Below, in pieces: positions 587-59,740 of a DNA stretch of 64,000 nt (position 1 is the first letter of the stretch; every line of letters begins with the position of its first letter). The position numbers and the translations under genes are program-made. The notes under the pieces are model-generated. The model was not told the DNA's origin, searched no databases, and worked only from the letters and a program-made list of their open reading frames with translations. Source of the stretch: Natronococcus sp. CG52 (GTDB lineage Archaea; Halobacteriota; Halobacteria; Halobacteriales; Natrialbaceae); contig NZ_CP099391.1 of NCBI RefSeq assembly GCF_023913515.1, positions 248,001 to 312,000 of the forward strand, read 5' to 3'.

Positions 587-2416
587 ATGAGCAGCCAACA
601 ACGAGAAGCCAAGGTGTACGTCAACGGGTCGCTGGTGGGGACCCATCCCGATCCGCACGAACTGGCCGAACAGATACGCGAAGCGCGACGCATCGGCGAC
701 GTCAGCGAGATGGTCAACGTCTCGGTCAAGGACCGGACCCGCGAAGTGATCGTCAACGCCGACGCGGGCCGCGCTCGCCGTCCGCTCCTCGTCGTCGAGG
801 ACGGCGAACCGCGCATTTCAGAGCAGGAGATCGAAGCGCTCCAGGACGACGACCTCGAGTTCGAGGACCTCGTCGATCACGGCTACATCGAGTTCATCGA
901 CGCCGAAGAGGAAGAGGACATCTACGTCGCCGTCGACGAGGACGACTTAGACGAGGACCACACCCACCTCGAGATCGACCCGTCGCTGATCTTCGGGATC
1001 GGTGCGGGGATGATTCCGTACCCCGAACACAACGCCTCGCCGCGTATTACGATGGGAGCAGGGATGATCAAGCAGTCGCTCGGACTGCCGAGCGCGAACT
1101 ACCGGATCCGACCGGACACGCGCCAGCACCTGCTGCACTACCCGCAGCTCTCGATGGTGAAGACCCAGACGACCGAGCAGATCGGCTTCGACGACCGGCC
1201 CGCCGCCCAGAACTTCGTCGTCGCCGTGATGAGCTACGAGGGGTTCAACATCGAGGACGCGCTGGTCATGAACAAGGCCAGCGTCGAACGCGCGCTCGCC
1301 CGCTCGCACTTCTTCCGAACCTACGAGGGCGAGGAGCGTCGGTATCCGGGCGGCCAGGAGGACCGCTTCGAGATTCCGAGCCAGGACGTTCGCGGGGCCC
1401 GCGGAGAAGAAGCCTACACGCACCTGGACGAGGACGGTCTCGTCAACCCCGAGACGACGGTCGACGAGAACTCCGTTCTGCTCGGGAAGACGAGTCCGCC
1501 GCGATTCCTCGAAGAGCCCGACGACATGGGCGGTCTCTCGCCGCAGAAGCGCCGCGAGACCTCCGTCACCATGCGCTCGGGCGAGTCGGGCGTCGTCGAC
1601 ACCGTCACCCTGATGGAGGGCGAGGACGGCTCGAAGCTCTCGAAGGTCTCCGTGCGCGACGAACGGATCCCCGAACTCGGGGACAAGTTCGCGTCCCGAC
1701 ACGGACAGAAGGGTGTCGTCGGCCACCTCGCACCACAGGAGGACATGCCCTTCACCGAGGAGGGGGTCGTTCCCGACCTCGTCCTCAACCCGCACGCGCT
1801 GCCGTCGCGGATGACCGTCGGACACATTCTCGAGATGATCGGCGGCAAACTCGGTGCGATGGAGGGTCGCCGCGTCGACGGAACGCCGTTCCTCGGCGAG
1901 GACGAGTCCGAACTTCGCGGGGGACTCGAGGAGTCCGGCTTCAACTCGGCCGGCAAGGAGACCATGTACTCCGGCATCACCGGCGAGAAGATCGAGGCGG
2001 AGATTTTCGTCGGGATCATCTTCTACCAGAAGCTCTACCACATGGTCTCGAACAAGCTGCACGCCCGCTCGCGCGGACCGGTGCAGGTGCTGACCCGCCA
2101 GCCCACCGAAGGTCGGGCCCGCGAGGGTGGGCTCCGTATCGGTGAGATGGAACGCGACGTCTTCATCGGTCACGGCGCCGCGATGACGCTGAAGGAACGG
2201 CTCCTCGACGAGTCCGACCGCGAGTACATCCACATCTGTGGACAGTGTGGAATGAGCGCGGTCGAGAACGTCGAACAGCGGCGTGTCTACTGTCCGAACT
2301 GCGACGAGGAGACGGACATCCACGAGATCGAGATGAGCTACGCGTTCAAGCTCCTGCTCGACGAGATGAAGGCTCTGGGTATCGCGCCGCGACTGGAACT
2401 GGAGGACGCCGTCTAA
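587..2416 (+). CDS. rpoB1: DNA-directed RNA polymerase subunit B'
   Basis: 609-residue C-terminal half of the split beta-like subunit. It follows B'' by 6 bp and precedes A' by 9 bp, so it is co-transcribed. It carries the catalytic-centre segment with GYNIEDA-like [12 protein letters not shown], the [15 protein letters not shown] motif near the active site, the [17 protein letters not shown] helix region and a C-terminal zinc ribbon with Cys551, Cys554, Cys569 and Cys572. The length fits haloarchaeal B'. It forms one wall of the catalytic cleft with A'. The start ATG is chosen because it follows the B'' stop and opens with a normal [15 protein letters not shown]-terminus. Confidence 0.98.
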
Positions 2417-52911: not shown

Positions 52912-53396
52912 TGGGAGAGAGAGCCTGGCTGCCGCGATGGTTGCGCCGGCGACGGCGGAACCACTCCACGTTGGTCACCCCTCCGGGTTGCCAACGCTCC
53001 TAACGTGGCCCACCTCTTCGAGATGTGCCACGCTCGCGAGGAAAGTCCCCCCACCTGTTCGGGCAGGTGACCGGACGCAAGTCCGGAGCGGGAGACCGCT
53101 GGCTCTGGAACAGAAACGACACGTCTCGGCCCGACCGATGATGCGCGCGAACCCGACCGAGAGGAAGGGGAGATAACCCGCAGAGGACGTGCGGTCGAAG
53201 AAACGTGGTTCAAACCCGCGGGTCACGCGTGGCGTGACCGACCGCACACAGACGGCCGAGGATCGATGGAACGGCGAACCCTCACCGGTGCAAGTCCGCG
53301 CCGTGGTAGCCCGAACGCCCCGCGGCCTCGCCGCGGACGGCGCGGACGCTCAGCCGAATGCCGGGACGAACAGAAGGGGGCTTACTCCTCTCACCC
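52912..53396 (+). ncRNA. rnpB: RNase P RNA (archaeal type A)
   Basis: Conserved P4 strand GAGGAAAGTCC (53038-53048) and the matching CR-V strand ACAGAAGGGGGCTTAC (about 53369-53384) are present, with GAACCCGACCGAGAGGAAGGGG-like specificity-domain elements between. The ends pair as P1: GGGAGAGAG (52913-52921) with CTCTCACCC (53388-53396), one mismatch. CTTATT about 28 nt before the 5' end can be the TATA element. It is the catalytic RNA of the tRNA 5' processing enzyme. Confidence 0.92.
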
Positions 53397-54418: not shown

Positions 54419-54840
54419 ATTTCACTCAACAGATACTCACACCGCTACGCGGTGCTCGCGGGTTAGTTTCGTGAAAAGCGTCCTGACGGAGATTTGAACA
54501 GATGGCAGACGGTCGCTCACTTCGTTCGCGCTGCGACTGCCGTGTTCAAATCTCCGCATGGGAGCCACTTCCACGACGAATACTCGCACCGCTACGCGGT
54601 GCTCGTGAGTTTGTCGCGGAAGAATGACGTCCTGACGGAGTCTCACACGAACGGAGTGAGTGTGAGGCACGTCAGGTCGCGAATGAAATGAGCGTCCTGA
54701 CGGAGATTTGAACTCGCCCAGAGGGTCCTGCTCACCTCGCTTCGCTCGGTTGCGCGGGCCGCCGCTGGTCTGCTCAAATCTCCGGGGAGTTTCGTCGACA
54801 CCAGCCGCTCGCTTCGCTCGCGGTTTGGTGTCGACAGAAA
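54419..54840. repeat. Tandem array of palindromic units carrying copies of the tRNA-Arg 3' end
   Basis: CCTGACGGAGATTTGAAC is found at 54482-54499, 54696-54713 and in the true tRNA (from 54844); a shorter copy (CGTCCTGACGGAG) is at 54628-54640. Units of 149, 65 and 148 bp run from copy to copy. Each long unit holds two hairpins: arms 54487-54500/54543-54556 (14 bp, perfect) and a second around 54569-54622 in the first unit; arms 54701-54711/54774-54784 and 54789-54839 in the last. A further hairpin (54419-54477) precedes the first unit. No coding frame. Confidence 0.8.
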
Positions 54841-54913
54841 CGTCCTGACGGAGATTTGAACTCCGGTCCCTGGCTCCGCAAGCCAAGAGGATAGTCCACT
54901 ACCCTACCAGGAC
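54841..54913 (-). tRNA. tRNA-Arg (anticodon GCG)
   Basis: 73 nt on the minus strand. Acceptor GTCCTGG pairs with TCAGGAC (one G-U), discriminator G; D arm GGGT/ATCC; anticodon stem TTGGC/GCCAG around loop TTGCGGA (GCG reads CGC and CGU arginine codons); T arm CGGAG-TTCAAAT-CTCCG. CCA is not encoded, so the CCA-adding enzyme at 58151 is needed. A TTTAA element lies about 30 nt upstream (54940-54950). No intron. Confidence 0.95.
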
Positions 54914-59658: not shown

Positions 59659-59731
59659 GCCGAAGTAGCTCAGATGGTAGAGCACCTCGCTGTTAACGAG
59701 GTTGTCCCAGGTTCGAGTCCTGGCTTTGGCG
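59659..59731 (+). tRNA. tRNA-Asn (anticodon GTT)
   Basis: 73 nt. Acceptor GCCGAAG with CTTTGGC (one G-U); D arm GCTC...GAGC; anticodon loop CTGTTAA (GTT) on stem CCTCG/CGAGG; T arm CCAGG-TTCGAGT-CCTGG; discriminator G. No intron and no encoded CCA. Followed by CTGTTTTTC, an oligo-T terminator at 59733-59739. Confidence 0.96.
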
Positions 59732-59740
59732 CTGTTTTTC
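59732..59740 (+). terminator. Oligo-T terminator of tRNA-Asn
   Basis: CTGTTTTTC directly after the tRNA discriminator base. Confidence 0.5.

Follow-up and report, generated by a model that had tools for sequence, protein, structure and literature searches.

Hairpin units behind haloarchaeal tRNA genes that duplicate the tRNA 3' end and carry arms matched to it

The tRNA-Arg(GCG) array of Natronococcus sp. CG52

The window analysed here is a stretch of 64,000 nucleotides from the 4.74 Mb genome of Natronococcus sp. CG52. On its minus strand, a gene for tRNA-Arg(GCG) is followed downstream by three extra copies of its 3' end, two long and one short, at spacings of 149, 65 and 148 bp, an arrangement described in a first-pass annotation and confirmed by the sequence. 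The features of the array are as follows, in order along the tRNA strand and in window positions:

54841..54913, minus strand: tRNA-Arg(GCG), the target gene (ARAGORN and Rfam RF00005)
54841..54861, minus strand: tRNA-Arg positions 53-73, the 21-nt segment that gets copied (sequence comparison)
54790..54840, minus strand: unit A (type 1), first hairpin, H1 (sequence and fold)
54772..54784, minus strand: unit A, inverted T-arm copy, the complement of tRNA 53-65 (sequence and arm statistics)
54714..54771, minus strand: unit A, core hairpin (sequence)
54693..54713, minus strand: long copy 1, direct, tRNA 53-73, 21 nt (sequence)
54677..54692, minus strand: unit B (type 2, short form), leading part (sequence)
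54670..54676, minus strand: unit B, inverted acceptor-end copy CCTGACG (sequence)
54641..54669, minus strand: unit B, core hairpin (sequence)
54628..54640, minus strand: short direct copy, tRNA 61-73, 13 nt (sequence)
54569..54627, minus strand: unit C (type 1), first hairpin (sequence)
54544..54556, minus strand: unit C, T-arm copy in inverted orientation, without mismatch over 13 nt (sequence)
54500..54543, minus strand: unit C, core hairpin, with a relative behind tRNA-Pro(GGG) (sequence)
54479..54499, minus strand: long copy 2, direct, tRNA 53-73, 21 nt (sequence)
54420..54478, minus strand: residual fourth unit, an H1-like hairpin alone with no copy behind it (sequence)

The order of a type 1 unit on the tRNA strand is tRNA 53-73, H1, inverted T-arm copy, core hairpin, and direct copy of 53-73; in a type 2 unit, the inverted arm corresponds to the acceptor end (CCTGACG in unit B), and the direct copy of unit B covers 61-73. 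Longer forms of unit B are present at orthologous sites. In all three units, the tRNA piece forms one arm of a hairpin; this had been noticed for the two long units, for which it holds, but had been missed for the short one (CCTGACG ... CGTCAGG). The residual fourth unit had likewise gone unremarked. The array folds far more stably than its shuffles (z -6.6, 0/100 shuffles as stable). The RPA-like protein adjoining it is 95% identical to that of Natronococcus pandeyae, the nearest named relative, and an archaeal RNase P RNA lies at 53020-53392 (+), about 1.4 kb from the array.

Hairpin units at other tRNA genes

A search of the genome with the array located a second such place directly behind tRNA-Pro(GGG), where the core resembles that of unit C and both arms have tRNA-Pro sequence. 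Across the 46 tRNA loci of the genome, 19 carry a copy of their own 3' end (at least 11/13 matches to it within 160 nt downstream), versus 0.13 expected from shuffles, which excludes chance for these copies; loci with units include tRNA-Gly, Thr, Phe, Ser, Leu, His, Pro, and Arg. The inverted arm likewise tracks the tRNA of its own locus (permutation P 5e-5), and this specificity for the own tRNA rules out chance or generic haloarchaeal palindromes as the source of the pattern.

The model for the first hairpin was built from 18 H1 sequences and describes a stem of variable sequence around GCGARCAA..CGYGAGC. Its pairing has strong covariation support, with 94% of cells paired, double changes numbering 42, and a score of 0.564 compared to at most 0.194 when slid, and its conserved tandem G-A pairs (GCGA/GAGC) resemble a kink-loop, a known L7Ae-type motif. 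In this genome, each of the 15 matches with E<0.01 is located behind a tRNA or forms part of a later unit of an array, the intron-containing tRNA-Trp being among the loci that carry H1. That the same units might be found beside other tRNAs, as the first-pass annotation had suggested looking for, holds in related genomes as well: H1 matches occur in 86/116 halobacterial genomes and 38/46 genera. Genomes other than this one were sampled by region. A search across the phylum returned H1 in 24/33 halobacterial genomes and in 0/164 genomes of other classes. Units occur behind at least 34 tRNA isoacceptors; they are about 80-190 bp long (median 103 nt) and have no conserved gene, in keeping with the earlier description of a short element without a coding frame.

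Among 80 further H1 matches, 60 follow an intact tRNA at a distance of 0-8 nt and another 12 form part of an array as its later units; of the remaining eight, for which the fetched piece contains no intact tRNA, seven follow a tRNA 3' fragment, as at the distal boundary of an integrated island. The only match without a recognised upstream tRNA fragment is L232, where a copy of the tRNA-Phe end comes after the unit. At L229 and L294, partial 3' halves of tRNA-Gly(TCC) that start near the anticodon precede the units, the arrangement that an island integrated at the anticodon loop should leave at its far end. The array behind tRNA-Phe at L020 includes a longer partial copy of tRNA-Phe, from the anticodon arm to the T-loop, with hairpins interrupting the T-loop; a similar hairpin-interrupted partial copy lies behind tRNA-Phe at L301.

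Curated Rfam families had no match in the units, the tRNA itself being the sole match, and neither the Arg att segment nor the unit pattern turned up when viral contigs were scanned for exact matches. The short H1 motif does match in viral contigs, where a stem of at least 5 bp is present in 3/243 matches and a unit behind in 0, versus 151/177 in tRNA loci on the same stem/unit comparison; the viral stretches are chance matches, their stems being rare and none having a unit behind.

The H1 motif and three classes of core recur behind dozens of tRNAs and genera. Cores can be alike at different isoacceptors with both arms different, as between tRNA-His and tRNA-Ser of this genome (95% identity) or between a Leu and a Val locus (97%); over 63 cross-isoacceptor pairs, mean identity is 0.87 for cores, 0.67 for inverted arms, and 0.41 for direct copies at positions 66-72. 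The similarity of H1 is independent of that of the core, and the two hairpins thus behave as modules; units may arise by the joining of two pieces or through recombinational reshuffling. Pairs of similar cores at different isoacceptors show no clear excess within this genome over those between genomes. Units may therefore seldom move from one tRNA type to another, with the arms adapted later, and part of the core similarity may reflect conservation of the class rather than recent movement.

Match to the resident tRNA and growth of the arrays

The arms were compared to their tRNAs in 198 units from 34 isoacceptors by a permutation test (2000 permutations). At positions 57, 59, 60, 62, 63, 64, and 65, the inverted arm agrees with the complement of the resident tRNA, 0/2000 permutations reaching the observed match at each (P<1/2000); from 66 on (66-70 tested) it is at chance, the edge coinciding with the end of the T-stem; in the family, the arm corresponds to tRNA 54-65, comprising T-loop and T-stem. 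With distance from the core the match declines (0.81, 0.74, 0.58, and 0.44 at positions 62-65). It does so also in units with a perfect direct copy, and the fade is therefore not simply an effect of age.

Direct copies span 53-73 with sharp edges on both sides and also follow the tRNA at 66-72, a stretch that has no pairing partner within the unit. The specificity of both arms for the resident tRNA across the 34 isoacceptors, which the first-pass annotation had not noticed, is the most unusual feature of the units. The arrays contain no foreign tRNA ends: versus 211 own copies there are 13 candidates, and all of these belong to an adjacent tRNA-Met or tRNA-Phe gene or to the units of that gene (L301, considered as a foreign-end case, is the neighbouring tRNA-Phe gene). 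In tRNA-Arg(GCG) orthologues that differ in their 3' end, the copies have the species' own variant at 46/46 informative sites, a count that is somewhat favourable to own-like copies, as these were sought with at most two mismatches to the own sequence.

The difference between an occupied orthologous site and its empty counterpart is a single unit plus one 3'-end copy, exact to the base; such pairs, another comparison that the first-pass annotation had recommended, are found at tRNA-Ala(CGC) and tRNA-Asn. In the window's genome the tRNA-Ala(CGC) site has no insertion (L012), and in a congener (L153) it holds one unit and one copy, the identical flank beginning right after position 73 in both. 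For tRNA-Asn, two records of Natrinema hispanicum are occupied (L053) and empty (L079), and in Natronococcus two sites are occupied (L059 and L139) and one is empty (L140). The tRNA-Asn gene within the window, at 59659-59732 (+), has no 3'-end copy behind it; its orthologues in relatives (L053, L059, L139) carry units. Behind tRNA-Arg(GCG), the array differs in most of the species examined, in each case with units of types 1 and 2.

In 55 arrays with at least two units, the copy nearest to the tRNA has 0.89 mismatches to it and the farthest 2.2 (P=8.6e-5). The nearest copy is the best preserved: new units enter directly beside the tRNA, and the arrays grow from there. The earlier proposal of repeated insertion at one tRNA site that leaves the tRNA intact is upheld.

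An autonomous, gene-bearing copy was sought at two weak H1 matches 1.5 and 2.3 kb behind tRNA-Ile and tRNA-Leu, and neither unit encloses a gene; one of these far matches follows an integrated-element remnant, and the other lies past a histidine kinase gene. Behind tRNA-Ile, a remnant at L227:230-1745 (G000:C1:395129-396644) separates the tRNA from an older hairpin unit with a partial tRNA-Ile 3' end in front; the remnant's ORF 997-1542 (-) resembles the N-terminal part of a phage-type integrase, as judged by eye.

Origin of the units and their relation to known elements

The units are specific for tRNA genes, insert precisely and with duplication, show polarity, and have arms that track the resident tRNA; a non-autonomous tRNA-targeting element, as originally proposed for the tRNA-Arg array, is supported. 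In the reading preferred here, to which we assign a probability of roughly 0.6, the units are copies of a short, non-coding mobile element specific to Halobacteria, composed of two hairpin modules, with arms written or rewritten from the target. For the copying itself, we infer the following scheme. A putative trans-acting enzyme would make a staggered cut, after position 73 on one strand and at 53/54 on the other; the core hairpin, joined at 53/54, would serve as primer for fold-back copying of the overhang over about 12 nt, and the copied strand would then be joined to H1. In this way T-loop and T-stem (54-65) would, at or after insertion, supply the template from which the internal arm is (re)written in inverted complementary form; in type 2 units, where the arm is the inverted acceptor end, the same scheme could operate with a shorter stagger. 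Core-primed copying would leave the arm most faithful beside the core and fading towards 65, and together with the staggered break it would account for the duplication, the inversion, the start at 54, and the outward fade; the gradient could instead result from a constraint on pairing. More tentatively, and at clearly less than even odds, the units may embody a new transposition chemistry, in which hairpin modules of DNA (or RNA) join a staggered break at the tRNA 3' end and core-primed copying rewrites the arm to match any of about 40 tRNA genes, without reverse transcriptase, IS200-type transposase, or Cas1.

Of these three enzymes, reverse transcriptase (PF00078) is found in 1/116 halobacterial genomes and not in this one, the IS200-type Y1 transposase (PF01797) has no match in this genome or in several genomes with 8 to 15 H1 matches, and Cas1 (PF01867) has none in this genome; enzymes absent today may have played a role in the past. 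An RNA template ending in CCA was considered and rejected, as the triplets commonly found behind the direct copy do not include CCA. The units contain no integrase gene and, at about 80-190 bp, are too short for one.

An integrase acting in trans, which the first-pass annotation had suggested, is nevertheless an option: the units could be satellites of tyrosine integrases, carrying their own att segment (53-73) and replacing the tRNA 3' end by recombination at G53/T54, with the inverted arm folding the att site like an integron attC. Seven tyrosine recombinases are encoded in this genome, tRNA 3' ends, with the T-loop region among them, serve as sites for archaeal integrases (PMC8371274), direct copies from the T-loop to the 3' terminus are as seen at such sites, and several unit types of tRNA-Arg(GCG) recur at that tRNA across families. 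An att segment borne by the element, however, predicts foreign tRNA ends, and with all 13 candidates being neighbouring genes there are none beside the 211 own copies, nor any departure from the host variant at the informative Arg sites; moreover, similar core classes occur at many isoacceptors with both arms different, and the Arg att segment is exact in no viral contig scanned. Integrase satellites are thus unlikely, and the earlier suggestion, as it stood, finds no support. The direct tRNA-end repeats, typical of islands, could also be remains of one large integrated element. Such an origin is almost certainly wrong: it is ruled out by empty and occupied sites that differ by a single unit, complete units of about 100 bp with the same boundaries occur at dozens of tRNAs, and the genuine island remnant at tRNA-Ile has another appearance and has displaced an older unit from the tRNA. 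The circumstances named at the outset as speaking against an insertion element, namely units confined to this place, the lack of an empty counterpart, or the remains of one large element, are not what is found.

Two further explanations dispense with mobility. Template switching at a palindromic tRNA 3' end, followed by gene conversion, would be in line with stems that are perfect yet variable in sequence, and with the small microhomology deletions present among the units (L168). Local slippage, however, imports no conserved H1 and core families that recur across tRNAs and genera, and the decay of the copies with distance from the tRNA argues against strong homogenisation, making this origin improbable. 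It is a shade less probable still that the units are functional RNAs, structured trailers that regulate tRNA maturation or yield small RNAs and whose pairing is kept by selection. The strong covariation of H1, its kink-loop-like tandem G-A pairs, and the ability of the arms to pair with the tRNA T-arm would fit such a role, but the presence, number, and type of units vary between close relatives, with empty sites being common, the direct copy tracks the tRNA at 66-72 though unpaired within the unit, and curated RNA families have no match.

The closest published relative found is SMR-A of Haloquadratum walsbyi, about 110 bp long, without a gene, with a preference for palindromes, and with a moving enzyme that is not known (PMC3119063); size, absence of a gene, haloarchaeal host, and strong target preference are common to both. 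SMR-A, however, has terminal inverted repeats, makes no target duplication, and inserts into PATE or IS605-end targets rather than into tRNA genes, target-matched arms being unreported (PMC3119063). The units, unlike SMR-A and MITEs, have no terminal inverted repeats, their ends being TTT.. and ..GTGG, and they differ from both SMR-A and PATE/IS200-IS605 derivatives by the 21-nt target duplication, and from the latter also by the absence of Y1 transposase from the genome. tRNA-integrating elements also form direct 3'-end copies and restore the tRNA (PMC8371274), but the units have no integrase gene, are about 100 bp long, form serial arrays, contain an internal inverted copy of the target, and carry no foreign att. 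REPINs and REP sequences, moved by RAYT (Y1) (PMC3116915), share the two hairpins, the length of about 100 bp, and mobilisation in trans. The Y1 family, however, is absent from this genome. REPINs, in addition, are not known to be tRNA-specific or to have a target-derived arm.

Growth at one end with duplication of a target segment is known from CRISPR adaptation and casposons; the units differ by the absence of Cas1 from the genome and by having neither terminal inverted repeats nor a spacer-like variable insert. The geometry of integron attC sites, with paired arms and G/TT at the inner edge, has a counterpart in the units, whose arms are paired and whose copy starts at an inner-edge G/TT, but the arms of the units match the tRNA. 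Mitochondrial repetitive and double-hairpin elements are likewise short double hairpins of divergent sequence with a mobility enzyme that is not known, but they occupy scattered sites, and no tRNA-end duplication or target copy is reported in the description consulted (PMC2800124). No description of the units themselves was found in the literature searched, subscription journals and preprints lying outside its scope. To our knowledge, no other family has arms matched to a resident target across dozens of targets.

In haloarchaea, the units make up a widespread class of mobile DNA, with most tRNA isoacceptors among its targets and with the target's sequence built into the insert, and they account for the hypervariable spacers behind haloarchaeal tRNA genes. 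They pose a problem of enzymology, namely what cuts, what copies, and what joins, and offer for it a large natural series of insertions of differing ages. They also bear on tRNA genes as insertion hotspots and on the one-ended growth of arrays without Cas1.
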